From Vulcanimicrobiota bacterium (GTDB taxonomy: Bacteria > Vulcanimicrobiota > Vulcanimicrobiia > Vulcanimicrobiales > Vulcanimicrobiaceae), in the NCBI GenBank assembly GCA_003168375.1, contig PMSI01000001.1, positions 1,736,001 to 1,800,000 on the forward strand: a DNA stretch of 64,000 nucleotides, given 5' to 3'. The translations under genes were made by a program, and so were the position numbers. A model generated the notes under the pieces. It did not search any database, had not been told where the DNA came from, and saw only the letters and a program-made list of their open reading frames with translations. This document shows, piece after piece, positions 40,474 through 62,370 of the stretch. Each line of letters starts with the position of its first letter. Position 1 is the stretch's first letter.

Positions 40474-41496
40474 ATGCGCACTACTTTGGCTGCTGACCGA
40501 GCCAGGCTTACCGAGACGCCGGCGCGCGCCGCGATCGTCCTCGACGGCGTTTCGCTCACCCGTCGTACGCAGCAGGAGCTGCAGTACGACCTGAAGCGCA
40601 GCATGTTCCGCCTCATCAGCGGTCGGATCGCCCGCGTCCAGCGCCGTACCGTGCTCCAGAACGTATCGCTGCGCGTCGAGCACGGTGAGAAGGTCGGGAT
40701 CATCGGGCCGAATGGCAGCGGGAAATCGACGCTGCTCAAGGTCATCGCAGGGATCCTGACGCCGACGCGCGGCACGGTGGACGTGGACGGGACGATCGCG
40801 CCGCTGATCGAGCTCGGCGTCGGGTTCGACCTCGACCTATCGCTGTTCGATAACATCCTCTACTACGGCGTCCTGCTCGGCCATTCGGAAGATCTCGTGC
40901 GGGCGCACGCCGACGAGATCCTGGATTTCGCGGAGCTGCGCGAGTACCGCGAAGAGCCGACCAAGACGCTCTCCTCGGGGATGGCGGCGCGGCTCAGCTT
41001 CGCGATCGCGACCGAGTTCCGGCCCGACCTCCTGCTGGTCGACGAGGTGCTCTCGGTCGGTGACGAGCGGTTCCGGCGCAAGTGCGCGGCGCGCATCGAC
41101 CGTTTCTGGGACGAGCAGAGCACGATCATGCTGGTGAGCCACGACATGCTAACGGTCGCGCGCACCTGTGACCGCGTGATCTGGCTGGACTGCGGCGAAC
41201 TCCGCTTCGACGGCCCCTCACAGCGCGCAGCCGAGCTGTATCTTTCGACGATCCCGAGCGTCGCGAACTTTCGGCGCGGCGAAGATCTCGTCAAGCTCGC
41301 CGAGACGAACCCGCGCGGCGAGGTTCTCGTGCGCGGGACATCGGGGCATCCCCAGCTCTACCTCGTGCGCGACGGCTGCCGGCATCCGATCGCGTCGGTC
41401 GAATGGTGCTTGCTGCACGACTACAGCGATACCGATCTCGTCCTGATCGACGACGAGGTGATCATGCAGGTCGCCGAGGGCGAAACGCTGCGCTAG
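40474..41496 (+). CDS. Polysaccharide ABC exporter, ATP-binding subunit (Wzt-like)
   Basis: 340 residues. Walker A GPNGSGKST (about 78-86), signature LSSGMAARLSF, Walker B LLLVDEVLSVGD, and SHD switch (VSHDML). This is the Wzt/TagH/KpsT group that energises export of undecaprenyl-PP or lipid-linked polymers. Beyond the NBD there is a 75-residue C-terminal extension (RGEVLVRGTSGHPQLYLVRD, HPIASVEWCLLHDY). It is shorter than the O9a-type carbohydrate-binding Wzt domain and resembles repeats that follow the VRG-x-PxVYLV-G-RHPI pattern. The permease gene is 1.25 kb downstream, separated by an antisense methyltransferase. Confidence 0.92.
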   Translation: MRTTLAADRARLTETPARAAIVLDGVSLTRRTQQELQYDLKRSMFRLISGRIARVQRRTVLQNVSLRVEHGEKVGIIGPNGSGKSTLLKVIAGILTPTRGTVDVDGTIAPLIELGVGFDLDLSLFDNILYYGVLLGHSEDLVRAHADEILDFAELREYREEPTKTLSSGMAARLSFAIATEFRPDLLLVDEVLSVGDERFRRKCAARIDRFWDEQSTIMLVSHDMLTVARTCDRVIWLDCGELRFDGPSQRAAELYLSTIPSVANFRRGEDLVKLAETNPRGEVLVRGTSGHPQLYLVRDGCRHPIASVEWCLLHDYSDTDLVLIDDEVIMQVAEGETLR

Positions 41497-42656
41497 CCTC
41501 GTTTGCGGCCGATCAGGACGTTGAGCGCGGCGAGCTCTTCGTTCGCGGCTTCGGGAAGTTCGCGTACGAACGGGCGGTCCACCAGCATCATCGGATCGAC
41601 GGCGAGATCGGCGACGCGCATCTGCTCGAAGTCGTGAGCCGCGGCCGGCGGAAGCTGAGAGCGCCAGGCCTGCAGCATCCAACTGAGCAGGAAGATCGGC
41701 CTGCCGGAGGCCGGTACCCCGAGGTGTTCGACCTCGCATCCCGCGAACAGGTTCTTGAGTCCGCCGGCGGTCATGTTGTAGTAGTGGTGCGGATAGCCGT
41801 GATACGGCTGGAGAAACGGAACCGCTGCGAAGACGTGGCCGCCGGGCCGTAAGACCCGCTCGAGCTCGCGCGCGGCGGCGAACGGATCGCGGACATGCTC
41901 GAGGACGGCGACGCTGATGACGACGTCGAACGTGGCGTCGGCGAACGGCAGAGACTCGGCGCTCGAGATCACGTCGGTCGTCGGATACGGTAAGATCTCG
42001 AGGTTCACCACGTCGTCGCGATAGTCAGGACGCAGACCGGCGCCTGCATCGAGGATCGGACCCGTGCTGCGCGCGATGAGGTCCCGCAGGGACGCATCGT
42101 ACCCGTGCGCCGAGACGTCGTGGACGGGCAGCCGGTCGAGTTGCGAGCGCAATTCGGCGTCGCGAAGGTCGAACGCTTCGTATGCGGTGCCGAAGGTGTG
42201 CCCGTTCGCGCAGCGTGGCTCCGGCAGGCCGCGTTCGAGCGGTGCGCGGCACGTAGGGCAGCGCAGCAGCGGCTCGATTCGCGCGAGCTTGCGCGCCTTC
42301 GCAGCGCCGAATGCGTCGGCTTCGGCGGCGTCAGCCAGCAGCTCGACCGACGCTTCATGCGGGCGTCCGCCGAACTCGAACCGGACGGTCCAGGGCCCGT
42401 CGAGCGCGCGACGTGCGTCGATCCAGCCCGAAAAGCCCACGGTCGCTCGACCCGACTGAGCGGCTCGGACGTCCGGGCGGTTCACCAGCGCGAGCGGGAT
42501 CGTAACGCCGCTTTCGTTCACGAGACGCACGCGGTCGAAAGCGCCGGTTCCCTCGACGGCCAGCCACCCGTGGACGACCGATACCGGCCCGGTGATGAGG
42601 CCGCCGGCCGGCGTGTCGAGGTGCACCATGACGAACGGGCTTGCTGCTTGCTTCAT
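41493..42656 (-). CDS. RPDV-domain, zinc-ribbon methyltransferase fusion
   Basis: 387 residues from ATG 42656. Residues about 20-107 are an RPDV-type domain (SVVHGWLAVEGTG, VNRPDV at 58-63, VGFSGWIDARRALDGPW). Residues about 132-155 form a zinc ribbon (LLRCPTC, CANGH). Residues about 165-387 are a class I methyltransferase with a reduced motif I (ILDAGAGLRPDYRD), FDVVISVAVLEHVRDPFAAA and LRPGGHVFAAVPFL. It lies between, and antisense to, the exporter genes, and its stop overlaps the Wzt stop (41493-41496). Terminal methylation that stops chain growth in Wzt-dependent O-antigens is an attractive role (inference). Confidence 0.83.
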   Translation of the reverse strand: MKQAASPFVMVHLDTPAGGLITGPVSVVHGWLAVEGTGAFDRVRLVNESGVTIPLALVNRPDVRAAQSGRATVGFSGWIDARRALDGPWTVRFEFGGRPHEASVELLADAAEADAFGAAKARKLARIEPLLRCPTCRAPLERGLPEPRCANGHTFGTAYEAFDLRDAELRSQLDRLPVHDVSAHGYDASLRDLIARSTGPILDAGAGLRPDYRDDVVNLEILPYPTTDVISSAESLPFADATFDVVISVAVLEHVRDPFAAARELERVLRPGGHVFAAVPFLQPYHGYPHHYYNMTAGGLKNLFAGCEVEHLGVPASGRPIFLLSWMLQAWRSQLPPAAAHDFEQMRVADLAVDPMMLVDRPFVRELPEAANEELAALNVLIGRKRG

Positions 42657-42747
42657 GAGTGGCTTGCGGACGGGAGTTCCCGGTCGGCGCGACGGCCCCC
42701 GTCGGCGACGAAGGAGCCTCGGCGAGACGACGGGCAAGAAGACGGCG

Positions 42748-43560
42748 ATGAGTGCTGTCCTCGACACCCGCCGCACCGGAACCACGATCTGGTCGCACCG
42801 GCAATTCGAGCTCGTGCGCATGTCGGCGATCCGGCAGCTCAAGGCCCGCTATCGGGGGACGGCGCTCGGCGTCCTGTGGTCGTTCGCGAACCCCTTGATG
42901 ATGACCGCGCTGTACACGGTATTGTTCGGCACGGCGTTCGCATCGTACTATGGCGGCTCGACGCACCGCTACCTGTTCTCCGTGTTCGTCGGCGTGGTCG
43001 TCGTAACGCTGTTCCTCCAGGCGACGGGCGAGGCAATCGTCACCGTCGTCGCCAACGGCGGGCTGCTAAACAAGATCGCGCTCGACCCCGAAACATTCCC
43101 GCTCGCCGCGATCATGGCCAACGCGTTCCAGCAACTGGTCACGACCTTCCCGGTGATCCTGGTGTTGGCCGCCGTCGTCACGCACGACCCGCTCCGCGTC
43201 GTGCTGGTCCCGTTCGTCCTCGCGGCGGTCGTCGCGCTGTGCGCGGGATTCGGGATCGCGCTGTCGGCGCTGTACGTATTTTTTCGCGACCTTTCGTACC
43301 TGTGGGGGATCATCGGCTTCATTTTCTGGATGACCAGCCCCGTCTTCTATCCCGCCGCGCTCGTGCCGGCGGGGGTGCGGCCGCTGCTGTCGGTGAACCC
43401 GATCGGGCTCGGCATCGCAGCGCTGCGCGAGGTGACGCTCGGCAAAGGTCCGATCGATCTCGGCGTGGTCGGCATGTTCTTGCTGATCTCGGCGGTGGCG
43501 CTGGTCGCGGGGCACCTGATCTTCCGCTCGCTGCGTCGCGACTTCATGGACTTGCTCTGA
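42748..43560 (+). CDS. Polysaccharide ABC exporter, permease subunit (Wzm-like)
   Basis: 270 residues from ATG 42748, with six membrane segments of the ABC-2 type. Features: cytoplasmic RMSAIRQLKARYRGTALGVLW at the first helix, LFGTAFASYYGG, FFRDLSYLWGIIGFIFWMTSPVFYP, and the C-terminal NPIGLGIAALREVTLG. Partner of the ATPase at 40474. Export of a completed polymer through this pair would be an alternative to the Wzx/Wzy route encoded at 4.5-11.7 kb, implying two glycans or a hybrid system. Confidence 0.92.
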   Translation: MSAVLDTRRTGTTIWSHRQFELVRMSAIRQLKARYRGTALGVLWSFANPLMMTALYTVLFGTAFASYYGGSTHRYLFSVFVGVVVVTLFLQATGEAIVTVVANGGLLNKIALDPETFPLAAIMANAFQQLVTTFPVILVLAAVVTHDPLRVVLVPFVLAAVVALCAGFGIALSALYVFFRDLSYLWGIIGFIFWMTSPVFYPAALVPAGVRPLLSVNPIGLGIAALREVTLGKGPIDLGVVGMFLLISAVALVAGHLIFRSLRRDFMDLL

Positions 43561-43578: not shown

Positions 43579-44772
43579 CTACGCGAATAAGTGGATGAAG
43601 GCATGATACGCATTCGGAAATGACGGAGCGGCGAACAGAAGCCATCCGACCACGACGAACGCGAAGGTCGTTCCGACCGAGGCCAACCGAACGAACCGGC
43701 CACCCGCCCGCAGGATCGCGACCTTCGGCACAACGGTGAGTTGCCAAGAGCGATGGACGGCGAGCCCGACTCCGTGCCATAGCCCCCATACCACAAAGGT
43801 CCACGCCGCGCCGTGCCAAAGACCGGCGATTCCCATCGCGACGAAGAGGTTGCAGGCCGTCACGAACCGCGAACCCCGACTGCCGCCGAGCGGGATGAAG
43901 ATGTAGTCGCGGATCCAACTCGAAAGCGACATGTGCCAGCGGCGCCAAAACTGTGCGATGTTCGGCGCGTGATACGGTCTCTCAAAATTCTCGGGAATCC
44001 GCAGTCCAAGCAGCCCAGACATTCCGATCGCAATGTCGGAGTAGCCGCTGAAGTCAAAGTAGATCTTGGCGGCGTACGCAAACATCGCGACCCAATAATC
44101 CAACCGGCCGTAAATGTCGCTCGGCAACAGGATCGGCTGAATGAACAGCGTCATCGAGTCCGCAATGACCGTTTTCTTGGTCAAACCGATGACGACGCGG
44201 TACGCGTTCAGCAAGAACGTCTGCGTAGAGGGCATCTCGATCGAGCGCACCTGCGGCGCGAAGCTCTCGAAACGTTTGATCGGTCCCGCCACGAGCGTGG
44301 GGAAGAACATGGTGAACACCGCGAAATCAAGCAGGTCCAGAGCGACGATCTTCCTCAGGTAGATGTCCACGAGAACATGGACGAACTCGAACGTGAAGAA
44401 CGAGATGGCGAGCGGCACAACGATGTTCGGAAGCGGGAGTATGTTATGCCCAGCCACCTGATCCACCGTGGCCGCTAGGAACTTCGTGTACTTGAAAAAG
44501 AAGAGCGTTCCCGCGATTGTCGCGACGCCCAGAATGAGGAAGAGCTTGCGCTTTCGCTGCGACCCGTCCGAACGAAGCATCGCATGGCCCAGCGTGTAGG
44601 TGATCGTCGCAAGTGCGACGATCAATAACAGATATGCCGGCACCGAATACGCATAGAACATCGCGCCCAGCGCGATGAGGGCATGCGGCCGATTGCGCGC
44701 CGGGACGATGCTCCAGTACACGAGCAACCCGATCATCGCGAAGAGCCCGAACACCCAGGTGTTGAAGATCAT
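43579..44772 (-). CDS. MBOAT-family O-acyltransferase (AlgI/DltB-like)
   Basis: 397 residues with about 10-11 membrane segments. Family marks: YFDFSGYSDIAIGMSGLLGL, NFERPYHAPNIAQFWRRWHM, SSWIRDYIFIPLGGSRGS and the catalytic His in GLWHGAAWTFVVWGLWHG. These enzymes pass acyl groups across the membrane to surface polymers (alginate, teichoic acid, exopolysaccharide). ATG overlaps the SGNH stop (ATGA), and a DltX-like microprotein gene heads the operon. The acyl donor could be an acyl-ACP from the cassette at 55.5-64 kb (inference). Confidence 0.93.
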   Translation of the reverse strand: MIFNTWVFGLFAMIGLLVYWSIVPARNRPHALIALGAMFYAYSVPAYLLLIVALATITYTLGHAMLRSDGSQRKRKLFLILGVATIAGTLFFFKYTKFLAATVDQVAGHNILPLPNIVVPLAISFFTFEFVHVLVDIYLRKIVALDLLDFAVFTMFFPTLVAGPIKRFESFAPQVRSIEMPSTQTFLLNAYRVVIGLTKKTVIADSMTLFIQPILLPSDIYGRLDYWVAMFAYAAKIYFDFSGYSDIAIGMSGLLGLRIPENFERPYHAPNIAQFWRRWHMSLSSWIRDYIFIPLGGSRGSRFVTACNLFVAMGIAGLWHGAAWTFVVWGLWHGVGLAVHRSWQLTVVPKVAILRAGGRFVRLASVGTTFAFVVVGWLLFAAPSFPNAYHAFIHLFA

Positions 44773-45773
44773 CGGGCCAGCACGTTCCGCAGGACCGCCG
44801 CCAGGTGGCGATTGCCGGCGATCGTCAGATGGTCGTTGTCGAGGAACTCGGCCGGGGCGAAGGCCCGATCGAGATCGATGACTTGCACGCCCGACTGCTC
44901 GAGCAGCGCGCGGGTCCGCGCGAGGTTGCTCCGGTATTCCGGTGCGTCGATGTAGTCGTGCAGCAACGCATGGTTCGTCGGCGTCAGAATCGCAATCGAG
45001 CGGATCCGCTCGTGCCTCAGGAGGCGGATCGATTTCAGCAGGAATTGGAGCGACACGTTCTGTTCATCCAGCGGTGAGAGATCGTAGGTGCCTTCGAACT
45101 GGGCTGCCGTCGGCCGATGGGCCGCGTCGCCGCGAGCTTTCGCCCCGCTCAGTGTCTGTACGAAATCATCGGCCGCATGGACGGCGTCGACTTGATCAAA
45201 GATCGCCTCGCGCAGATCGGAGCGCAACGCGTAGAGCTTCCAATGTGCCGTCATCTCAGAATCAAGAGCGTGTTCGAAGGATCTCTGCGGGCCGGTTTGG
45301 TCAAGGAGTCCGCGCTCGCCCGGGGTGAACAGCGACCCCGCTAAGGCATTTAGCGAGGGATGAACCGTCCGATACGCACTGTCCGCCGGACTGAATTCCT
45401 TTTGATTCACGTTGAAGACGACCGTACTCGGATGCACGCCCTCGCTCAGCATCAATCGCAGCAGGGCATACAAATTGACCGGGCTGCCACCCTGAAAGGC
45501 GAGATTTCGCGCAGGTAGGCCGCCGGCACGCAACAGGCTGACTGCTGATTGGGACGGCCTAACCTTATATCCCCACAGGACAGAATCGCCGATGAAAAGC
45601 GCCTGCGGCGACTCCCTCGCGAGTGCGTGCACTTCACGCTCGAGGTAAGCCGCTGAAAAGTTATCGCTGAACCGCTCGAAACGTGGAAACCACGTACCGA
45701 TCGCTACATCGGTCGCAGACAAGAGCACGACAAGCACGAGCATGGTCAAGCCCAGGGGTGCAAGCGCGCGCAT
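44769..45773 (-). CDS. Membrane-anchored SGNH/GDSL-type acyl hydrolase or transferase
   Basis: 334 residues. Signal anchor at about 7-25, then the SGNH fold: block I FIGDSVLWGY (Ser64), NLAFQGGSPVNLY (Gly block), FNVNQKEF (Asn block) and C-terminal DNDHLTIAGN (Asp-x-x-His). Comparable to DltD, AlgX and PatB partners that finish or edit acyl transfer outside the membrane. Flanked in one operon by the DltX-like gene (2-bp gap) and MBOAT gene (ATGA overlap). Substrate unknown. Confidence 0.87.
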   Translation of the reverse strand: MRALAPLGLTMLVLVVLLSATDVAIGTWFPRFERFSDNFSAAYLEREVHALARESPQALFIGDSVLWGYKVRPSQSAVSLLRAGGLPARNLAFQGGSPVNLYALLRLMLSEGVHPSTVVFNVNQKEFSPADSAYRTVHPSLNALAGSLFTPGERGLLDQTGPQRSFEHALDSEMTAHWKLYALRSDLREAIFDQVDAVHAADDFVQTLSGAKARGDAAHRPTAAQFEGTYDLSPLDEQNVSLQFLLKSIRLLRHERIRSIAILTPTNHALLHDYIDAPEYRSNLARTRALLEQSGVQVIDLDRAFAPAEFLDNDHLTIAGNRHLAAVLRNVLAR

Positions 45774-45775
45774 CT

Positions 45776-46012
45776 TCAGAAGTCCGTGTAGATGAAGCGC
45801 GATTCGGTCGACGGGCCGAACACGATGATCGCAATGACGAGTAAGAAGAGGACGACGCCCAGGACGAGCGGCCGAGCAAGCAATCGTCCGAAGGCGCGGT
45901 ACATTGGGTCGTCCGCGAGCGCCTCTTCCACGCTCACCGCGCCCGGGACAGGCTCAATCATCGATACCCGAGCCGCGTTCTTGAGAAGCGAACTGCGCAC
46001 CTGGCGTCGCAT
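45776..46012 (-). CDS. DltX-like single-pass microprotein ending FIYTDF
   Basis: 78 residues from ATG 46012, or 61 from ATG 45961; neither has a clear ribosome site. One membrane segment (RPLVLGVVLFLLVIAIIVFG), then a short exposed tail GPSTESRFIYTDF. The gene is first in an operon with SGNH and MBOAT genes, two bases before the SGNH start. In the D-alanylation pathway the microprotein DltX works with DltB (MBOAT) and DltD (SGNH), and its conserved C-terminal aromatic motif with a Tyr carries the acyl group. Size, topology, tail and neighbours match that design. By analogy the Tyr in FIYTDF would be the acyl carrier. Confidence 0.7.
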   Translation of the reverse strand: MRRQVRSSLLKNAARVSMIEPVPGAVSVEEALADDPMYRAFGRLLARPLVLGVVLFLLVIAIIVFGPSTESRFIYTDF

Positions 46013-46064: not shown

Positions 46065-47876
46065 ATGAGACCGCTCGCGCTGCTGGCAGCGATCAGTATG
46101 GTGCTGCTGTGCCGCGACGCCGTTATTGCAGAGACGAATGTTTCGACGTTCGCCGGATCGGGCGCGACCGGCTACGCGGACGGCTCCTCACAAAACGCGT
46201 CGTTCATGTTACCGCTAGGAGTAGCGTACGACGCGGATGGCAACCTGTACGTCGCCGATGCCGCTGCGCAGCGGATCCGGAAGATCGCGCGCGATGGGAG
46301 CGTACGAACGCTGGCCGGCGGCGGAAGCGTCGACGCGTCCGGCGTTTGGACTCCGGGTGGGTACGTGGACGGCGACGGGTCCGTCGCACGCTTCAACCAT
46401 CCCTCGGCGGTCGCCATCGGTCCGGACGGGCGGGCGTACGTCGCCGATAGCTATAACCATTGCATTCGAGTCGTTGCGCAGGACGGCACCGTCTCGACGC
46501 TCGCCGGCTCCCCGACGCGGTCCGGCTTGCGCGCCGGACCTCGCGACGTCGCCGAGTTCATCATGCCGATGGGACTCGCCTTCGACCGCAAAGGCAACCT
46601 GTACGTCGTCGATGCGGGCCTGGCGAACGCGGTGCGCAAGATCGATCGCGACGGTGTCGTGAGCGACGTGAAACTGCCGGGTCACGTCCAGCCGCCGGGC
46701 GGGCTCGCCGTCGTCGATGACGCGAATGGACTCACGTTCGTGCTGGCAGATCTCTCGGGGCTGTACGTTCGTCATGCGGACGAATCCGTCACGATCTTTC
46801 GGAACGAGTATTTTCGCACGAAGTGCGCTGCTCGGACGGCTCCCGGCTACGTGGCATGCGATCAGCCCGAGACGATTCTTCGAGAACACCGCGACATCGG
46901 GACCCCGATCGGGGTCGCGGCGTTCAACGACCACATCTTTGCGTACACTGATTTCCGGACGAACTCCGTGCGGTTCGTCGACGTGCGCTCGTCGACGGAG
47001 CGTTTGCTCGCCGGATACGCGCTCGAGGACGGGTCCGGCCGGGGCGCCGGCGCACGCGACGGCGAGGGGCGAAGCGCGACCTTCAACATGCCGTTCGGGA
47101 TCGCGATCGGACCGAGCGGGGAGCTGGCTATTGCCGACGGCGGGTCGCGTCGCGTCCGCGTCATACGCGACGTCGACCGGACGGAGCCGCTGGCCGTCGC
47201 GGATGCGGCGCGCACCTCTGCGCCGAGCGGGAGGCGTGTCGTCGCCTACGCAGGCGACGCGACGGTATGGCAGGGGACGGAGTGGGGTGATTCGATCGAA
47301 GGCCGGCTGCAGCGGCGCCTCAACGAGAGCGCGTGCGCGGGGTGCAAGACGCTCCAGGTCGTCCCCGTCGTGCTCGGGCCTTCGTTCAAGGACGGCCTCG
47401 CGGTATTGGGATCGCTCCCGAACCATCGCTTCGACGTCATCGTGCTGCAGTTGAACGTGCTCGATGCCGCCGGGCTCGCCAATGTCGACGTTCGACGGCT
47501 GATCGCCTCGCCGGGCGTTTGGCGGACGAGCGTGACGCCGGCACTGCAGCGGCTCGCCGCGGCCGTGAAGCGCCGCGGTTCTCGATTGCTCGTCCTCGCG
47601 CAGCCGTTACCGGCGGATGTTGGCCCGGCGACCGCGCTTTGGGCGCGCGAGAGGGCGGTCTCGTCTGCCGGCGAGACCGGCGTCGCAGCGCTCGAAGCCG
47701 CCGTCGTCGCATCGGGTGTGCCGCTCGCCGATGCCGTGCGTGAGTTCGCGGCGAGCGAAAACTCCGCTGCGCCGGCGGCGCTCTTTTCGACCGACGGCAC
47801 GGAATTTGCAAGCGGCGGTCGCGAAGCCCTCGCCGCGAGCGCCGCTCGTGCACTGCTGAGCCTGCGCGAATGGTGA
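46065..47876 (+). CDS. Exported NHL-repeat protein with degenerate SGNH-like domain
   Basis: 603 residues with a signal peptide (LALLAAISMVLLCRDAVIA). Residues about 25-370 form an NHL propeller with repeats such as GVAYDADGNLYVADAAAQRI, AVAIGPDGRAYVADSYNHCI and GIAIGPSGELAIADGGSRRV. Residues about 385-603 look like an SGNH-hydrolase domain (VVAYAGDATVWQGT, FDVIVLQLNVLDAAG, RLLVLAQPLP). The GDS serine is Ala and the terminal Asp-x-x-His is missing, so catalysis is doubtful. Divergent from the MBOAT operon (52-bp gap) and overlapping its paralogue downstream. A glycan- or acyl-recognition role is possible. Confidence 0.82.
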   Translation: MRPLALLAAISMVLLCRDAVIAETNVSTFAGSGATGYADGSSQNASFMLPLGVAYDADGNLYVADAAAQRIRKIARDGSVRTLAGGGSVDASGVWTPGGYVDGDGSVARFNHPSAVAIGPDGRAYVADSYNHCIRVVAQDGTVSTLAGSPTRSGLRAGPRDVAEFIMPMGLAFDRKGNLYVVDAGLANAVRKIDRDGVVSDVKLPGHVQPPGGLAVVDDANGLTFVLADLSGLYVRHADESVTIFRNEYFRTKCAARTAPGYVACDQPETILREHRDIGTPIGVAAFNDHIFAYTDFRTNSVRFVDVRSSTERLLAGYALEDGSGRGAGARDGEGRSATFNMPFGIAIGPSGELAIADGGSRRVRVIRDVDRTEPLAVADAARTSAPSGRRVVAYAGDATVWQGTEWGDSIEGRLQRRLNESACAGCKTLQVVPVVLGPSFKDGLAVLGSLPNHRFDVIVLQLNVLDAAGLANVDVRRLIASPGVWRTSVTPALQRLAAAVKRRGSRLLVLAQPLPADVGPATALWARERAVSSAGETGVAALEAAVVASGVPLADAVREFAASENSAAPAALFSTDGTEFASGGREALAASAARALLSLREW

Positions 47877-49717
47877 CGAGTATGTCGGCGAAGAGACTGC
47901 GAATCGTTGCGCGAACGGCCGCGTTCGCGGCGTTGGCGTGGGGCGGCGTCGTCGGCGGGGCTCAGGCGGGCGTCGTCGCGACGCTCGCCGGCTCGGGATT
48001 ACCGGGACTTGCCGATGGTGCTCATGCGTCGGCGTCGTTCTTGATGCCGGCCGCGCTCGCGTACGACCGTGCCGGGAATCTGATCGTCATCGATTCCGCC
48101 GCCCAGCGCGTACGCCGCGTGCGGCCCGACGGTACCGTGGAGACCATCGCGGGTTCCGGTGTGCTCGTAAAAGGCACCGGACACGTAGCGGGAGGTTTTG
48201 CGGACGGTGCCGGACCCACAGCCCGATTCAACTGGCCGCGCGGTATCGCGATCGCCAAAGATGGAACGATCTACGTCGCGGACACAGGCAACCATTGTAT
48301 CCGTGCGATCTCATCATCGGGGCGCGTCTCCGTCTACGCGGGTTCGCCCGCACGTGCGGGTCGCGAGCTCGGTTCGCGCCGAGCGGCGACGTTCACGACG
48401 CCGATGGGTCTCGCGGTCGACGCGAAAGGCGACCTGTACGTCGCGGACCCGGCGGCGGGGCTTCGGAAGATCGATGCCGACGGCAACGTGACGGCGGTGC
48501 CGCTCGGTCACAATCCGACCGGAGTCAGCATCGGCGAAGCCGGCGGACTCACGATGTACGTCGTCGATCGCGACGGGATCCTGATCGCGTATCCCGACGG
48601 CCGCCATTGGCGGCTGCGTTCGCTGAATCAAGAAGGTTCATTCGACAGTGGGGCCTCTTTGCCGGACCCGCCGGGCACGGTCGAACGCGACATGGCAATG
48701 CAGCGGCCCGTCGGCTACGCGCAGTCCCTCACGGTGCTCCCTGGCGATCAGATCTTTTTCGCGGATCCGCGCGCGAACACGATCCGGTACGCATTTCCGG
48801 CCTACGCGTTCTCCGAAACGCTGGCGGGAAGCGCAACCGAGGATGCCGCCGGTGAAGGTGCCGGATATCGCGACGGCGCGAATCGTGAGGCCCGCTTCAA
48901 TGGGCCGCTCGGGACCGCTGCGAGCGCCGACGGGTCGACGATCGCGATCGCCGACGCCGGCAACCGGCGAGTGCGCCTGCTTCGAATCGACGTCCCGCGC
49001 GATCTCGTGCAGCAGGCTACTCTCGTCCCACTCGGCGACGCGCCCGAGAATGCGTACCGCATCCTGTACCTCGGTCCTTCGTGGACCTGGTACGACAGTA
49101 CGGGCTCCGACTCGATATCGAGCCGGCTCGAAGAGCAGTTGCAGGCTGACGGCGCGTTGGCTTCGGCAAAGCTCGTACCGAACGTTCGCTTCTTCGGCGG
49201 CGTCGGTTCCCTGGACCCGATCGAGTCGGTTGCTCGAACGGTCGCCGATTTGGGCATCGACAAGCTCGTCCTCCTCGACGTCACGGAACTCACCATCCAG
49301 TCGAACATGCAGACCGAGCTCACCGAACCGGCCACGTGGCAAACCACATTCAGTTCGCGCCTGCGAGCCGCCGATGCCATCCTGCGCGCCGCGCACGTGC
49401 GCTTTGTCGTCGACATCCATCCGTTTCCGCTCGAGTTCTCGGCGAACGAGTATCCGCTTTCGCGCATGGGCCTGCCCGCGCTCGGCACGGGCCGCATCCC
49501 CGAGACGCGACTCCGGCCGCTGCTCAGGCAAGCCGTTCTCGCCGCCGGCGTCGAGCTGATCGACACCTATCCGGATTTCCAAGATGAGGCGCGGCATCCG
49601 AGCGCGCCGATGACGGGGACGGTCGACTCGCACTACTCGGTGTTCGGACGCGCCGTCCTCGCGCGAGCCATCGCGCATGGGCTCGAGAAGCTCGCTCCGT
49701 GGGCGAGCGAGCGCTGA
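47870..49717 (+). CDS. Exported NHL-repeat protein with SGNH-like domain (paralogue)
   Basis: 615 residues; ATG 47870 overlaps the upstream stop by seven bases, with GTG 47873 or ATG 47882 as alternatives. The signal peptide ends near AQAG. An NHL propeller follows (about 40-385: ALAYDRAGNLIVIDSAAQRV, GIAIAKDGTIYVADTGNHCI, GTAASADGSTIAIADAGNRR). The SGNH-like domain is about 395-615: block I reads RILYLGPSWTWYD (GPS, not GDS), KLVLLDVTELT, VVDIHPFPLEF and a final DSHYSVFG. The latter retains Asp-x-His, so activity is more plausible than in the upstream copy. The pair probably works with the adjacent acylation trio. Confidence 0.83.
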   Translation: MVTSMSAKRLRIVARTAAFAALAWGGVVGGAQAGVVATLAGSGLPGLADGAHASASFLMPAALAYDRAGNLIVIDSAAQRVRRVRPDGTVETIAGSGVLVKGTGHVAGGFADGAGPTARFNWPRGIAIAKDGTIYVADTGNHCIRAISSSGRVSVYAGSPARAGRELGSRRAATFTTPMGLAVDAKGDLYVADPAAGLRKIDADGNVTAVPLGHNPTGVSIGEAGGLTMYVVDRDGILIAYPDGRHWRLRSLNQEGSFDSGASLPDPPGTVERDMAMQRPVGYAQSLTVLPGDQIFFADPRANTIRYAFPAYAFSETLAGSATEDAAGEGAGYRDGANREARFNGPLGTAASADGSTIAIADAGNRRVRLLRIDVPRDLVQQATLVPLGDAPENAYRILYLGPSWTWYDSTGSDSISSRLEEQLQADGALASAKLVPNVRFFGGVGSLDPIESVARTVADLGIDKLVLLDVTELTIQSNMQTELTEPATWQTTFSSRLRAADAILRAAHVRFVVDIHPFPLEFSANEYPLSRMGLPALGTGRIPETRLRPLLRQAVLAAGVELIDTYPDFQDEARHPSAPMTGTVDSHYSVFGRAVLARAIAHGLEKLAPWASER

Positions 49718-53701: not shown

Positions 53702-55519
53702 ATGCCTGTTCTCCGGCGAATAACGCCGCTTGCGGTGCTCGTCGCTGTCGCGGTAGCCTTCGTCGTCTTACCGATCGCCTCAACGGCATTTCTCGGTGAC
53801 GACCAGTTCAACTCGACGGTCAACGGTTCGCTGCTCGAGTACGGCATCTCGCTGAACCAACTCGCGTGGCAAACGACCACCGGCTTTTTGCACCAAACGT
53901 CGCGTTTCGTACCAGGGTTCTACTATCAGGCGTACGGGCTCTTCCACTTCTTTCCCGGCCTAGCTGAGTACAAGGCGATCCAGATCGTGCTGTACGGTCT
54001 TAGTTTTGCGTTGTTCGCACTGCTGCTGCGCCTGCTCCGGCTCGGTCCAGCAATGACGGCGTCGGCGGTCCTGCTGTCCCTGACGGCCGTGCAGTTCTAC
54101 GGTCACTACGATGCGTATCTGGGCTTCTCGGCGACGATTCCGTACTGGCTGGCCTTAACGCTGAGCTCATGGATCGCCTTCACGCTGTGGCTTCGGAATC
54201 CGCAGGGGAACTGGGGCCGCCGCATCGCGGTGCTCCTGTTCGTGTTTTCCGTGCTGAACTACGAGACGCTGTATCCGATGTCGGTCGGCCACCTCCTTAT
54301 CGCGATGCATATGCGCGGGCGTGCGGCGTGGCGTGACGCGTGGCCTTTCCTGGCGGTTACCGCCGCGGCGCTGGCGCAGATTGCGATCGCGCGCTTGGTG
54401 ATCCCGCAGCCGGCGAACGCCCTGTACTCATTGCACGTGCTTTCGCTCGAGTACATTCGGACCGTGTTTTATCAGGTCACCGCGTCACTGCCGCTCATGC
54501 ACCTCGCGTTCTTCGGCTGGAGGATGTTCCCGCCCGGCACGCCGTTCTGGTCCGTGGCGCCATGGTGGTTACTCGCGTGCGTCGCCGCAGTTTCGGCGGC
54601 CGCGGCATTTCTAGCGTTCCGCGCGCTCGGGGGATCGCCGCCCCGGCAACTCGTGCTGCCCGCCGCTTTGGGCGCGTGGCTCTGGGTTGAGGCGGCGCTC
54701 TTGCTTGCGGCGATTCCCCGGTATCAAGTGGAAGTTCAGCTGGGATACGGATACGGACCGATGGCGCTGGGCGGATTCGGTGCGGCGATCGTGCTCGCGT
54801 GCGCACTTGCAGCAATCGTCGCTCGAATCCCGGAACGGCGTCGGCAGGTCGCCGCGGCAGGGCTCGCCGCGCTCTACGCGCTCGTGGCGACGGTGTCGTT
54901 CGAGGCAAACCAGCGAACGCTCGCACTTTTCGAGGGCGAGCGGGCTGCGCTGATCAACCTCGTCGCCGCACTCGACGACGGTGTGGCGTCGAGCGTTCCG
55001 GACGGGGCAATACTGCTGAGCGCTTCGCCGCTCGCGATCATGAACCGGTACGACGCGATGCGCGATAACATCAGCGAGCTCGACAACCCGCGCTTTTTCG
55101 TGCGCGAGCACACCGGACGAGCGGTTCGTGTGCGCAGCCTGGCGGAGAAGCCGAATGCGGTCGCGTGTGAATCCGAAAGTTGCCCGGTCGAGGACACCTA
55201 CGGATTGTACGACGTCCCGCTCGACGTTCGCGACGGGTATACGGCGGTCGGACGCCTCTCGCGCGTTTCGCGGCTCGGTGACGGAACGCTGCGGCCATGG
55301 GCCGACGACGTACGCGTTCACGTCCGGGGCGACCGCATCGCGGATCTCGGCGAGCACGTTCGGATCGTCGTGGCGTACGTATGCGCCTCCGGCGGCGCGG
55401 AGCACAGCACGCCCTTGACTGCGTCCCCCGCGGCGATACGGCATGGCGTCATCGTTCGGATCGCCGCGAGTTGTCCCGTCGATCTCACGAGCGTCCAAAT
55501 CGCGCAATCGCCAGGTTAG
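53702..55519 (+). CDS. Polytopic membrane protein, possible GT-C-type glycosyltransferase
   Basis: 605 residues from ATG 53702 (TTG 53675 is possible). About 11 membrane helices in the first 420 residues, then an extracytoplasmic C-terminal part. The first loop has FLGDDQFN; an acidic pair at this spot is what GT-C enzymes (ArnT, PMT, YfhO relatives) use for catalysis. A Cys pair in ACESESCPV may form a disulfide. I cannot place it in a named family. The adjacent small RPDV proteins and upstream polyprenyl-phosphate sugar synthase (49726) suggest a role in periplasmic glycosylation. Confidence 0.75.
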   Translation: MPVLRRITPLAVLVAVAVAFVVLPIASTAFLGDDQFNSTVNGSLLEYGISLNQLAWQTTTGFLHQTSRFVPGFYYQAYGLFHFFPGLAEYKAIQIVLYGLSFALFALLLRLLRLGPAMTASAVLLSLTAVQFYGHYDAYLGFSATIPYWLALTLSSWIAFTLWLRNPQGNWGRRIAVLLFVFSVLNYETLYPMSVGHLLIAMHMRGRAAWRDAWPFLAVTAAALAQIAIARLVIPQPANALYSLHVLSLEYIRTVFYQVTASLPLMHLAFFGWRMFPPGTPFWSVAPWWLLACVAAVSAAAAFLAFRALGGSPPRQLVLPAALGAWLWVEAALLLAAIPRYQVEVQLGYGYGPMALGGFGAAIVLACALAAIVARIPERRRQVAAAGLAALYALVATVSFEANQRTLALFEGERAALINLVAALDDGVASSVPDGAILLSASPLAIMNRYDAMRDNISELDNPRFFVREHTGRAVRVRSLAEKPNAVACESESCPVEDTYGLYDVPLDVRDGYTAVGRLSRVSRLGDGTLRPWADDVRVHVRGDRIADLGEHVRIVVAYVCASGGAEHSTPLTASPAAIRHGVIVRIAASCPVDLTSVQIAQSPG

Positions 55520-55524
55520 CCCTT

Positions 55525-56268
55525 GTGCCTCGAAGGATTGATGACCATCTCGCAGCCCACGTCGAAGAAGTCCGATTCGGGACCACGAAGGACCCCGGAT
55601 GCGTGCGCCTGTGGGGGATCGACACCTCGCGCTTCTCGCCGAACGACGCGCTGGGTTTCGAGGTATTCCTCGACGAGCCGGAACGGCATCGAGCCGCGCG
55701 CTTCGGAGCTGTCGCGTATCGTGCAACGTACGTCCTTGCGCACGCGTCGGCGCGCCTGCTGCTCTCGTCGATGAGCGGCGTCGACCCCGGCGTGCTGGCG
55801 CTGCGTCGCACGCCGCGCGGCAAGCCCTTCATCGATCCGGCAATGAACGCGTGCGGGATCCGGTTTAGCATCGCCCACACCGACGGTTTCGCGGCCGTCG
55901 CTGCAGCGTTCGGCCGTGACGTCGGCGTCGACGTCGAAGCGATCGACCGCAGCGTCGAAGGGGCGCGAATCGCGCAACGGCACTTCACCCCGCGCGAGCG
56001 GCGTGAGCTCGCCGAGCTCGAGGGCGAAGCGCAACACGACCGCTTCTTTGCGTTCTGGACCATGAAGGAAGCAGTCTTGAAAGCAGCCGGAACGGGTCTG
56101 CATACACCGCTCGACGCGCTCGACGTCTACCTCGCGCCGGCGCGTATCGCCACTCGGCACGCAGCGTTGGCTGCCCCGGGTGGCTGGTCGGTCGAGACGT
56201 TCCGCCCGACGCGTCGCCACCTCGTTGCGCTGGCGCACCGGCCGGGGCAAGCGGAGACGACATGCTAG
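55525..56268 (+). CDS. 4'-phosphopantetheinyl transferase (Sfp type)
   Basis: 247 residues from GTG 55525. Core motifs GVDVEAIDR (about 132-140) and FWTMKEAVLKAAGTGL (about 175-190) hold the Mg ligands and catalytic Lys; RFSIAHTDGFAAVA is the preceding strand. It converts apo carrier proteins to holo form by adding the CoA arm. It overlaps the ACP gene by seven bases, so its clients are almost certainly the two ACPs at 56262 and 62119. Sfp-type rather than AcpS-type, as in secondary-metabolite loci. Confidence 0.92.
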   Translation: MPRRIDDHLAAHVEEVRFGTTKDPGCVRLWGIDTSRFSPNDALGFEVFLDEPERHRAARFGAVAYRATYVLAHASARLLLSSMSGVDPGVLALRRTPRGKPFIDPAMNACGIRFSIAHTDGFAAVAAAFGRDVGVDVEAIDRSVEGARIAQRHFTPRERRELAELEGEAQHDRFFAFWTMKEAVLKAAGTGLHTPLDALDVYLAPARIATRHAALAAPGGWSVETFRPTRRHLVALAHRPGQAETTC

Positions 56269-56561
56269 CGAAAGACGAGATCCTCAGCCTGCTGCGCGAA
56301 TCGATCTTGAGTTTGCGGCGGAGCGGGATCATCGAGGTGGATATCGCGGTCGACGCCGAAACGATTCTCCTCGGCACCGGCTCGTCGCTCGACTCGATGG
56401 GTTTCGTCACGTTCGTCACCGACGTCGAGGAGCGTCTCAACCGCGAGACGGGGAAGGATCTGTACATCGTGTTGACCGAGCTCGAAGAACGCTTCCCCGG
56501 CTCGACGACACTCACCGCTGACATGTTCGCCGATTACCTCGTCGAATTGACCGCCGCATGA
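56262..56561 (+). CDS. Acyl carrier protein (first)
   Basis: 99 residues, a four-helix carrier protein with the pantetheine site in GTGSSLDSMGFVTFV (Ser45). DSM replaces the common DSL. Slightly long, with helix I rich in Leu and Arg. ATG overlaps the PPTase stop and its own stop overlaps the SDR start (ATGA). Different enough from the ACP at 62119 to suggest separate roles, for instance elongation of a short acyl chain with the KAS III and reductases here. Confidence 0.9.
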   Translation: MLAKDEILSLLRESILSLRRSGIIEVDIAVDAETILLGTGSSLDSMGFVTFVTDVEERLNRETGKDLYIVLTELEERFPGSTTLTADMFADYLVELTAA

Positions 56562-57280
56562 GCCCCATGCCGCCGGGTTCTCCGGTGATGGTCGTTACCG
56601 GCAGCAGCCGCGGAATCGGACGCGGAATGGCGGAGCACTTCGCGAACGCGGAGTACATCGTCGAAGGCTGCTCGCGCGGTGAGTCGACGTTGACGGACGT
56701 GCCGAACTACCACCACAGCACGGTCGACGTCAGCGACGAGTCGCAGGTGCGCGATTGGGCGCGCGCGGTGAAGCGGCGGCAGGGCCGCGTCGACGTCGCG
56801 ATTTGCAACGTGGGTCTGGTGAAGCTTGGAACCGTCACCGGAATGACGACGCTCGAGTCGTTCCGTTCGTTCGTGGACGCCATTCTGACCAGCACGTTCC
56901 TCGTCTGTCGCGAGTTCTCGAAGGTCATGGCCCTCCAGCGCTACGGCCGCATTATCAACATCAGCTCGATCATGACCGAACTGCACGCGCCGGGAACGCC
57001 GGCGTATTCGTCGGCCAAGAGCGGCGTCGTCGAACTGACCAAGGTCCTGGCGCGGGAGCTGATCAACACCGGCGTGACGTGCAACGTCGTTTCCCCTTCG
57101 CTGGTGCTGACCGAATCTTCGGAAGCGTTCGGCGAAGAGTGGAAGAAGAACATGCTCGCGATGCAGACGCTGCAGCGCCCGATCGAGATCGCCGAGCTGT
57201 GCAACATCGTGCGCTTTTTCGCATCGCCCGAGTCTGGCTGCGTGAGCGGGCAGGTCGTTCACACATGCCTCGTCACGTGA
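56558..57280 (+). CDS. SDR-family ketoreductase (FabG-like)
   Basis: 240 residues. TGSSRGIGRGMAEHF cofactor loop, NVGLVKLGTVTG in place of NAG, active site INISSIMTELHAPGTPAYSS followed by AKSG (Ser, Tyr-x3-Lys), and PSLVLTESSEAF. Length and layout fit 3-oxoacyl-ACP reductases, and coupling to the ACP gene supports acyl-thioester reduction. The second reductase in the cassette is the C-terminal half of the protein at 59037. Cofactor preference is not clear; Arg after the Gly loop region hints at NADPH. Confidence 0.88.
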   Translation: MSPMPPGSPVMVVTGSSRGIGRGMAEHFANAEYIVEGCSRGESTLTDVPNYHHSTVDVSDESQVRDWARAVKRRQGRVDVAICNVGLVKLGTVTGMTTLESFRSFVDAILTSTFLVCREFSKVMALQRYGRIINISSIMTELHAPGTPAYSSAKSGVVELTKVLARELINTGVTCNVVSPSLVLTESSEAFGEEWKKNMLAMQTLQRPIEIAELCNIVRFFASPESGCVSGQVVHTCLVT

Positions 57281-57299
57281 GCTTGGGATCCGCGGCCCT

Positions 57300-57986
57300 A
57301 TGGGTGTAGTCCGACCCTCGCAAACGATCTCCGGCTTCGAGATCACTCCGTTGACCAACGGCACGTTCAAGGAGAACTGCTACGTCGTGGTCCATCTCGC
57401 GTCGAACGATTGTCTGCTGATCGACCCCGGGGCGGAGGCGCCGTTTCTGCAGGAACACCTCGACGCGCGTGGCTTGGCGCCGCAGAAGATCGTGCTGACG
57501 CACGGCCATTTCGATCACGTCGGCGCCGTCGACGCACTGATGGAGCGCTTCGGGATCGCGTGCGAGGTCCACGCGAACGAACAGCGTCTCGTCAGGCAGG
57601 CGGCGACGTACGCATTTCGCTTTTCGCGCGAGCCCCTGCGCGTGCCGCGCCGCCTCACGTTCTTCAGCACCGGATCCGCGCTGGACTGGAACGGCCGTTC
57701 GATCGACGTGCTGGAGGCGCCCGGCCACACGGCCGGCAGCGTGGCGCTCTCGCTCGGCGGCGCATTCGTGTTCACCGGAGATGCGCTCTTCCATGAGAAG
57801 ATCGGGCCGACGACCTATCCGGAAAGCGATCCGGCCGCGATGCAGCGCTCGGTGGCGAACCTCCTCGATTCCCTCCCCGATGATTGCGTGATCTTCCCCG
57901 GCCACGGTCGTCCGTGGTCCATCGGAGCCGCCCGGATCTGGTGGAACGCGCTGCGAGGACCGGCGCCGGCGCAGGTGATCTTTTGA
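57300..57986 (+). CDS. MBL-fold metallohydrolase (glyoxalase II-like)
   Basis: 228 residues. Metal motif THGHFDH (about 73-79), later ligands in EAPGHTAGSV and FTGDALF, and FPGHGRPW. Substrate class is thioesters for many relatives, so an acyl-ACP or acyl-CoA thioesterase/editing role in this cassette is plausible. Nothing in the sequence fixes the substrate. Starts 20 bp after the SDR and belongs to the same run. Confidence 0.88.
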   Translation: MGVVRPSQTISGFEITPLTNGTFKENCYVVVHLASNDCLLIDPGAEAPFLQEHLDARGLAPQKIVLTHGHFDHVGAVDALMERFGIACEVHANEQRLVRQAATYAFRFSREPLRVPRRLTFFSTGSALDWNGRSIDVLEAPGHTAGSVALSLGGAFVFTGDALFHEKIGPTTYPESDPAAMQRSVANLLDSLPDDCVIFPGHGRPWSIGAARIWWNALRGPAPAQVIF

Positions 57987-58047
57987 CCCGACGGCCGATC
58001 CGGACGGAGACGTCAACCAATTCGGGCCTCGAGGGGTCGTGTCTGAC

Positions 58048-59040
58048 ATGACGGGGATCGGTATCCTAGGGATGGGGAAGACCGTTCCGACCAACCAGAT
58101 CACGAATGAATCGATCGAGGCGGCCGCCGGACTGCCGCCGGGGACGATCGAGCAGAAGACGGGCGTGAAGGCGCGCTACGTCGCTCGCGAAGGCGAGACG
58201 GCCTCCGCGCTCTCGGCCGAGGCATCCCGGCAGGCGATGGAAGCAGCCGGCGTGTCGGCGGACCAAATCGGACTCGTGCTTGCGGCGACGTTCACCGCCG
58301 ACTACGTCATGCCGGCGCTGGCGTGCAAGATCCACCAATTGCTCGGAACGAAACACGCCGCCGCCTTCGATCTCATGGCGAACTGTACGGGCTTTCAAGT
58401 CGGCCTCAGCGTGGCGTCCGAGAAGCTCACATGCGATCCGTCGCTGACACATGCCCTCGTCGTCGGAGCGGCGCTACAGTCGCGCTTCGTCAATTGGAAC
58501 GATCCCAATTCCGCGCTCTATTTCGGCGACGGCTTCGGGGCGGCAGTGCTCGGCCGTGTACCGGACGGATACGGATTTCTCGCGCACGACATCTTCTCGC
58601 ACACGGCGGTGTACGAGTCGGTGCGAATCCGGGGAGGCGGCTCGAGCCACCCGATCCGGCCGGAGAACGTACACGACCTGCTCAACTACTATGAGATCAA
58701 CGGGATGGACGTGTGGAAGCAGGTCGCGCAGCACCAGCCGACCTCGATCAAGCGCGCGCTCGAGAAAGCCGGGTTGGCGGTCGACGACGTCGATTTCTTC
58801 ATCTTTCATCAGGCCAATCTGCACCTGATCACCTATTTGATGGGCAAGATGAAGGTTCCGATGAGCAAGACGTACACCAACGTCGCGGAGATCGGAAACA
58901 CCGCGGAGGCGTCGATGGCGATCGCGCTCTGCGAGGCGGTGGAGAAGAAGCTGATCAAGAAGGGCGACGTCGTCGTGATCTCGGGCGTCGGAGCCGGCTT
59001 CACGTTCGGGGCATCGGTGATGCGCTGGTGGGAACCGTGA
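58048..59040 (+). CDS. 3-oxoacyl-ACP synthase III-like enzyme (KAS III)
   Basis: 330 residues from ATG 58048, with GAGGGG eleven bases upstream; GTG 58039 is too close to that site. Catalytic triad intact: Cys113 in DLMANCTGFQVGL, His in FHQANLHLI and Asn in VAEIGNTAEAS. KAS III enzymes start acyl chains from acyl-CoA or act as acyl transferases. Sequence is distant from housekeeping FabH. Position between hydrolase and hydratase-reductase genes marks it as part of a dedicated acyl-group pathway. Its stop overlaps the next start (GTGA). Confidence 0.92.
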   Translation: MTGIGILGMGKTVPTNQITNESIEAAAGLPPGTIEQKTGVKARYVAREGETASALSAEASRQAMEAAGVSADQIGLVLAATFTADYVMPALACKIHQLLGTKHAAAFDLMANCTGFQVGLSVASEKLTCDPSLTHALVVGAALQSRFVNWNDPNSALYFGDGFGAAVLGRVPDGYGFLAHDIFSHTAVYESVRIRGGGSSHPIRPENVHDLLNYYEINGMDVWKQVAQHQPTSIKRALEKAGLAVDDVDFFIFHQANLHLITYLMGKMKVPMSKTYTNVAEIGNTAEASMAIALCEAVEKKLIKKGDVVVISGVGAGFTFGASVMRWWEP

Positions 59041-60257
59041 GCTATACGCGCGAGAAGACGACCGTGCGCGTCCTCGACTTCGACACGATCGCGGTCGGCG
59101 ACCGCGCCGAGTTTCGTCATACCATCGAACAGGCCGATGTCGAGGCGTTCGCCGCGCTGACCGGTGACTACAACCCGCTGCACGTGGACGCGACCTTCTC
59201 GCGGCGCACCTTGTTCCGGCGCCCCGTCGTGCACGGAATGCTGAGCTCGTCGTTCATCTCTACGATGATCGGTACCGTGCTGCCCGGCAGCGGGGCGCTC
59301 TGGACCTCGCAAACGCTGGATTTTCTGGCACCCGCCTTCGTCGGGGACACGATAACGGTGATCGCGACGGTCGAGCAGAAATCCGTTGCAACGCGGATGC
59401 TGACGTTGCGAACCGTCGTTGTAAACCAGCATGGGCGCGAGCTCGTCGCCGGAAAAGCGCAAGTGAAGGTCCTCGATGTGAGGGAAGAGGAGGCTGCCAT
59501 CCCAACGACCGACACCCCGCGCGTCATTCTGATCACCGGGGCGAGCAAAGGAATCGGCGCGGCGATCGCCGCGACGCTCGCGCGGGCGGGCCATGCCGTC
59601 GCCGTGAACTATCACCGGTCCGCCGAGGAGGCGCGTGCGCTCGTCGCGGAGCTATCCGCCGCCGGGCATCGGTCCGTGGCCGTCGCCGCGGACGTTGCGA
59701 ACGAGTCCGCGGTTCGCGCGATGTTCGCTTCCGTTGAGGAATCGCTGGGCCCCGTCGACGACGTGATCCACTGCGCCGCCCCGTTGCCGGTGCCCAAGCC
59801 GTTCGAGTCGCTGTCGTGGGACGACTTTCAGGCGCAAATCGACACGCAGCTCCGCGGCGCATTCAACTGCGCAACGGCCGCGTTGCCGGGCATGATCGGG
59901 CGCGGCGGCGGCAGCCTGCTCTTCATCGGGTCCGTGTTCGCCGACGGAGTTCCTCCGGTGCAGCAGTCACCGTACGTGGTCACGAAGGCCGCGCTCGTCT
60001 CGTTCGCGCGCACGCTGGCGGTCGAGTACGGGCCCAAAGGCATCCGCGTGAACGTCATCGCGCCGGGAATGACGCAAACCGACATGATCTCGAGCCTCCC
60101 CGACAAGGTGAAGATGCTCACCAAGATGCAGACGCCGCTCCGGCGGCTCGGCGATCCGCAAGACGTGGCGAACGCGGCCGAGTTCCTGGTCAGCTCGCGA
60201 GCGCGCCATATCACGGGTGAGACGATCCGGGTCGGCGGCGGCATCACGATGAGCTGA
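59037..60257 (+). CDS. Fusion of MaoC-like hydratase and SDR ketoreductase
   Basis: 406 residues from GTG 59037 (GTGA). Residues about 10-145 are a MaoC/hot-dog (R)-hydratase: Asp and His in GDYNPLHVDATFSRRTLF, HGMLSSSFISTMIG, FLAPAFVGDTITV. Residues about 158-406 are a FabG-like SDR: ILITGASKGIGAAIAATL, Ser plus QQSPYVVTKAALV (Tyr-x3-Lys) and GETIRVGGGITMS. One chain would thus dehydrate/hydrate and reduce a 3-oxoacyl thioester. Fusion order hydratase then reductase gives a C4-type hydroxyacyl or enoyl supply in two steps. The expected substrate is the ACP-bound product of the KAS III next to it. Confidence 0.9.
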   Translation: MSYTREKTTVRVLDFDTIAVGDRAEFRHTIEQADVEAFAALTGDYNPLHVDATFSRRTLFRRPVVHGMLSSSFISTMIGTVLPGSGALWTSQTLDFLAPAFVGDTITVIATVEQKSVATRMLTLRTVVVNQHGRELVAGKAQVKVLDVREEEAAIPTTDTPRVILITGASKGIGAAIAATLARAGHAVAVNYHRSAEEARALVAELSAAGHRSVAVAADVANESAVRAMFASVEESLGPVDDVIHCAAPLPVPKPFESLSWDDFQAQIDTQLRGAFNCATAALPGMIGRGGGSLLFIGSVFADGVPPVQQSPYVVTKAALVSFARTLAVEYGPKGIRVNVIAPGMTQTDMISSLPDKVKMLTKMQTPLRRLGDPQDVANAAEFLVSSRARHITGETIRVGGGITMS

Positions 60258-60287
60258 CGCTGCCGTGTATCGTAAGACGATCCCTCA

Positions 60288-62132: not shown

Positions 62133-62370
62133 CGACACGAAGTTGAAGCAGACGCTGGCGCAGGTCCTGGGCGTTCCGGAAAGCGGTATCGGCGATGAAA
62201 CGTCGATGGACACGGTGCCGCAGTGGGATTCGCTGAAGCACCTCAACTTGGTGCTCGCAATCGAGGAGCAATTCGGCGTGTCGCTCACCGAAGAGCAGTC
62301 GTTCGAGATCTTGAGCTACCCCCTCGCGAAGGCCGTCCTCGCCGAGCACGGGATCGACTTCGCAGCATGA
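62119..62370 (+). CDS. Acyl carrier protein (second)
   Basis: 83 residues. Carrier site VPQWDSLKHLNLVLAIEE (Ser38) and helix III FEILSYPLAKAVLAEHG. Embedded between FkbH (14-bp overlap) and the AMP-binding ligase (ATGA overlap), so it probably carries the glyceryl or ligase-supplied unit. Together with the first ACP this gives two separate carriers served by one PPTase. Confidence 0.93.
   Translation: MPSGNDTKLKQTLAQVLGVPESGIGDETSMDTVPQWDSLKHLNLVLAIEEQFGVSLTEEQSFEILSYPLAKAVLAEHGIDFAA

Follow-up and report, generated by a model that had tools for sequence, protein, structure and literature searches.

A tailless MBOAT, an SGNH protein and a separate DltX-like microprotein in Eremiobacterota: a probable O-acyltransferase outside the Dlt pathway

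The closest described systems combine an MBOAT, an SGNH protein and an acyl-shuttle motif. In the DltB-DltX-DltD complex the motif is carried by a separate single-pass microprotein encoded in the same operon, and a separate shuttle microprotein was previously described only in Gram-positive teichoic-acid alanylation; a literature search found no other report of such microproteins. In PatA-PatB peptidoglycan O-acetylation and in AlgI-type systems, the MBOAT itself ends in the motif, which is borne on additional membrane helices. In PatA this fused tail carries an acetyl-Tyr, from which the group is transferred to PatB, and FXYXXF was defined as the acyl-shuttle motif (PMC12148441, J Biol Chem 2025). 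MBOAT-SGNH pathways besides Dlt were said to lack a DltX-like microprotein, the motif being fused to the MBOAT (PMC12148441). The window described here (the whole stretch of DNA that was analysed, 64,000 nucleotides) comes from a soil-dwelling member of Eremiobacterota, a phylum that has been little studied. It encodes what is probably (at about 0.78) an extracytoplasmic O-acyltransferase of three proteins, which shares the build of the DltB-DltX-DltD complex but lies outside the Dlt pathway.

The three genes occupy the minus strand from 46012 to 43579 (window ORFs), in the order microprotein, SGNH protein, MBOAT. The DltX-like single-pass microprotein (45776..46012, minus strand; 78 aa from the first ATG, ending SRFIYTDF) is followed after 2 bp by the SGNH protein (44769..45773, minus strand; 334 aa, with an N-terminal membrane helix and a predicted DltD-like fold), the gene of which shares a 4-bp ATGA overlap with that of the MBOAT (43579..44772, minus strand; 397 aa, DltB-like, no fused tail). 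Because of the 2-bp gap and the 4-bp overlap, the three genes almost certainly form one transcript. The C-terminal hexapeptide FIYTDF (45779..45796, minus strand; Tyr codon 45788-45790) fits the published F-x-Y-x-x-F and is the candidate acyl shuttle. The catalytic residues are Ser64 (GDSV) and Asp312/His315 (DNDH) in the SGNH protein, and His280 (WHMSLS) and His320 (LWHG) in the MBOAT. A sequence-only reading of this DNA had placed the microprotein first in an operon with an intact SGNH protein and an intact MBOAT, and the gene coordinates, tight packing and catalytic residues agree with it. The length of 61-78 residues that it gave for the microprotein probably stands at the lower value. Relatives share a start (MIE-VPG...) at the internal Met at 45961, which is therefore probably the true start, giving 61 aa; the 78-aa form is probably an over-long ORF. 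After an N-terminus that is Arg-rich in the listed ORF, the microprotein has a single hydrophobic helix and ends in the short stretch ESRFIYTDF; this tail is expected from the sequence to lie outside the cytoplasmic membrane.

The MBOAT domain is recognized by PF03062 at 85.9 bits (cut-off 27). His320 is invariant; in the alignment with DltB it corresponds to His336, and His280 to His289 (PMC11035591). The AlphaFold2 model (pLDDT 89.1) has DltB as its best PDB match (TM 0.78). Against the DltB equivalog TIGR04091, the protein scores 196.9 bits, below the family cut-off of 375, where true DltBs score 480-543 bits. Its C-terminus (...YHAFIHLFA) is devoid of the shuttle hexapeptide, and the motif is encoded by the separate gene. 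A hidden fused tail or a frameshift was dismissed, as no short MBOAT ends in or overlaps the motif. In DltB of S. thermophilus, the DltC-docking residues of helix HC are Met302, Val305, Ile306 and Met309 (PMC11035591). The corresponding positions of the MBOAT are occupied by the stretch IPLGGSRGS, and the hydrophobic docking residues are not kept. The GDS Ser, Asn and DN-His blocks of the SGNH protein are retained in 12 relatives. Its model is of middling confidence (pLDDT 70.7) and ranks four DltD entries at the top (Z 15.9-16.7 over 237-261 residues), against Z ≤14.8 for other SGNH enzymes. No match to PF04914 or TIGR04092 was found at E≤1, and a profile-profile comparison with DltD was not significant. 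Two relatives (L130 and L161) have the microprotein and the MBOAT without an adjoining SGNH gene. In architecture and folds the trio is like DltX-DltD-DltB, whereas its sequences are not closely similar. The proposal of a diverged, Dlt-like three-part design is borne out by the conserved tail (see below), by a tailless and DltB-like MBOAT and by an SGNH model nearest to DltD.

A scan of contigs from about 85,000 species with the MBOAT as query yielded 80 loci, nearly all of them with a fused shuttle tail (FIYFQF and similar). The tailless exceptions with intact ORFs were four loci of Eremiobacterota and one of Binatota, each with a small ORF ending FIYTDF or FIYTEF. Further loci were added by a profile search of 149 genomes of Eremiobacterota and 148 genomes from the phylum Binatota. 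In total, 15 loci with a short MBOAT were counted, and four others were cut by contig ends. The split and fused designs are alternative states of an MBOAT: split MBOATs are all tailless, and the long ones are tailed except for a few partial or divergent sequences. Both designs coexist in the genome of the window, which also encodes a fused MBOAT (L001; 477 aa, tail FIYFRF). The pattern FIYT[D/E]F-stop was absent from 398 genomes of Pseudomonadota, and plasmids held nothing closer than relatives of 35-40% identity. The Binatota genome that contributed the locus L015 (G149) has four short MBOATs (on C123, C6, C40 and C3), in a phylum in which the other sampled MBOATs are almost all fused; this looks like horizontal gain followed by expansion. 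Also, seven loci of Eremiobacterota (L104, L105, L112-L115 and L118) encode MBOATs of about 870-910 aa with several hundred extra residues, still ending FIYFKF or FIYFRF.

A tree of 83 MBOAT sequences falls into three separate groups, one of DltB, one of fused MBOATs and one of split MBOATs. In the best tree the split group (support 98/83) has the fused group as its sister, and a branch of length 2.1 (support 100/100) separates the MBOAT of the window from DltB. A single clade of split MBOATs and DltB was not rejected by the AU test (p 0.218), and the sister relationship to the fused group is therefore not claimed as an established placement. The likeness to the PatA-PatB and AlgI types extends to the motif PLGG[S/N]R, common to the MBOATs, and to the lack of a dedicated carrier in most relatives; the separate gene for the shuttle motif sets the window apart from them. 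Rooted on DltB, the tree can be read, though this is a reading and not a result, as a separate microprotein being older and fusion having occurred once. A broader proposal goes further: microprotein shuttling would be ancestral in bacterial MBOAT-SGNH machines, with Dlt as one branch, Eremiobacterota and Binatota as a second that never depended on DltA or DltC, and PatA and AlgI arising from a single later fusion. It is put forward tentatively, with the odds somewhat against it.

The operon is surrounded by glycosyltransferases and an ABC polysaccharide exporter, of which the ATPase (40474..41496, plus strand; PF00005) and the ABC-2 type permease (42592..43560, plus strand; PF01061) were located; the permease is a candidate route of the acceptor polymer. 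Omp85 is encoded in the genome, which fits a diderm. The earlier description of an apparent diderm polysaccharide locus is supported on these grounds. Because of the glycosyltransferases, the exporter and Omp85, the acceptor is likely to be a diderm surface polysaccharide. Two genes for NHL-propeller proteins diverge from the operon. The first (46065..47876, plus strand) has an SGNH/AlgX-like C-terminal region with GDA instead of GDS, the catalytic Ser being apparently lost. The second (47870..49717, plus strand) has SGNH-like C-terminal motifs (GPSW...DSH), assigned by eye and accompanied by no Pfam SGNH match. Throughout the phylum, relatives of this pair are repeatedly found next to split operons. 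So is an uncharacterized secreted protein, about 150 aa long and belonging to no Pfam family (L010:3251-3724, L012:2608-3090, L125:2971-3522, L130:1378-2004), many copies of which end ...TGxLPP; in the genome of the window it is found 31 kb from the operon (C4:1812312-1812791). The NHL-propeller proteins and the small secreted protein may be accessory components of the modification system to which the operon belongs.

The microprotein matched no Pfam or NCBIfam family, and a TatA-like identity was set aside (weak scores, E 0.6-1); these results leave room for an unrelated small membrane protein with an accidentally similar tail. Against this, all 15 of the 15 relatives with enough flanking DNA have exactly one ORF of 40-150 aa ending F.Y..F, whereas none of the 4,553 ORFs in this size range at 74 loci with tail-fused MBOATs ends in this way, and a chance tail is ruled out by this comparison. 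The tails read FIYTDF in 10 relatives (Eremiobacterota), FFYGNF in three (one sub-clade of Eremiobacterota) and FIYTEF in two (one genome of Binatota). The motif is retained despite divergence of the body and altered gene order. In six aligned microproteins the tail is FIYT[D/E]F, with D/E as the sole change and the remainder down to about 30% identity; the tail codons vary among relatives, the tail residues are constant, and the gene lies upstream in Eremiobacterota and downstream of the MBOAT in Binatota. The pattern FIYTDF-stop occurs once in the 4.43-Mb genome. Accidental likeness is thus left with next to no probability, and the conservation is as expected of a functional motif, which the tail appears to be. 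Tail conservation in orthologous operons was one of the points on which the sequence-only reading had said that its proposal could fail, and the tail was kept throughout. A divergent true D-alanylation system, with DltA and DltC encoded elsewhere or diverged, would agree with DltB and DltD as the best fold matches, with the clade left unrejected by the AU test and with the likeness of FIYTDF to the DltX tails of the comparison set (real dlt operons of Bacilli), which read FIYN[E/D/Q]F with one FVYNEF. However, neither DltA (best 111.5 bits, cut-off 559.85) nor DltC (best 13.6 bits, cut-off 52.35) exceeded its cut-off anywhere in the genome, which is 97% complete; the absence of dltA and dltC, previously noted beside the operon, thus holds genome-wide. 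The MBOAT falls far below the DltB cut-off and has its own branch in the best tree, PLGGSR takes the place of the DltC-docking helix HC, position 4 of the tail is T where DltX has N, and the gene order differs. The locus appears to be a diderm polysaccharide locus, and the presence of Omp85 points to a diderm that lacks teichoic acid. True D-alanylation is very improbable in view of these differences.

The remaining alternative concerns the acyl donor. An acyl-ACP module (55297..63761, plus strand) lies 10-18 kb from the operon within the polysaccharide locus, and was missed in the earlier reading of the carrier content of the locus. It comprises a PPTase-like ORF, an ACP (56262-56561, plus strand), an SDR, an MBL-fold protein, a KAS III-like protein, a MaoC+SDR protein, FkbH (60288-62132, plus strand; TIGR01686, 302 bits) and an AMP-ligase (acyl ligase; 62223-63761, plus strand); the PPTase, KAS III and MBL-fold assignments were made by eye from translations. 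The donor could be a dedicated acyl-ACP from this module, so that in this genome the trio would be carrier-fed like Dlt, the group transferred being of a hydroxyacyl or glyceryl type in place of D-alanine. The presence of ACP, FkbH and AMP-ligase in the same window speaks for this, as do two other loci. In L134 (1387-5769), FkbH is clustered with an MBOAT whose tail reads ...IVYKGF and with an SGNH protein from the same family as that of the window. L196 (5167-7916) and L194 (7237-9719) encode distant short MBOATs with an SGNH-like neighbour and small ORFs with candidate aromatic Tyr tails (FRYIGF and FRYAGF, respectively), as in the window; their MBOATs are much more distant, and the operon of L196 directly includes an ACP and an AMP-ligase. 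L194 and L196 are possibly further Dlt-like carrier-fed systems outside Dlt. On the other side, the module ACP was found in only 2 of the 149 genomes of the phylum, the second of which (G122) shows no split MBOAT, and neither ACP nor ligase was present in 365 kb around the split operons of relatives. The local ACP was accordingly rejected as a general donor, not being conserved with split operons. The missing docking residues of helix HC also speak against an acyl-ACP donor, but this is a weak point: the MBOATs of L194 and L196 lack the DltC site as well and L196 adjoins an ACP, which likewise weakens the argument that GGxR in place of helix HC signifies acyl-CoA. A dedicated acyl-ACP is thus an unlikely donor for the trio, although acyl-ACP is possible in the genome of the window. 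Because the ACP occurs in so few genomes and none lies near the operons of relatives, the split trio most likely works in general without the ACP of the window, with acyl-CoA as donor.

For the favoured reading, an O-acyltransferase of Dlt-like build outside the Dlt pathway, the following route is proposed. A cytoplasmic thioester, most likely acyl-CoA, would supply the MBOAT with a small acyl group, which would cross the MBOAT channel and be loaded onto the Tyr of the microprotein's periplasmic FIYTDF tail. The loaded tail would then swing to the SGNH protein, where Ser64 would accept the acyl group and esterify a polysaccharide that is exported or exposed at the surface. The chemistry of DltX and PatA is the basis for proposing an acyl-Tyr intermediate and this order of transfer, the DltB- and DltD-like folds are predictions from models, and the identities of donor and acceptor polymer are guesses from genomic context. 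The split family contradicts the generalization of PMC12148441, and does so in diderm phyla without D-alanylation genes. The design in which the shuttle is a subunit is thereby separated from D-alanine and carrier proteins. The split family also suggests in what order the steps towards a fused microprotein and MBOAT may have taken place. Subunits of this kind, of 50-80 aa, can be overlooked by annotation pipelines. Since the genome of the window naturally contains both a split and a fused version, it offers material for testing shuttle function.
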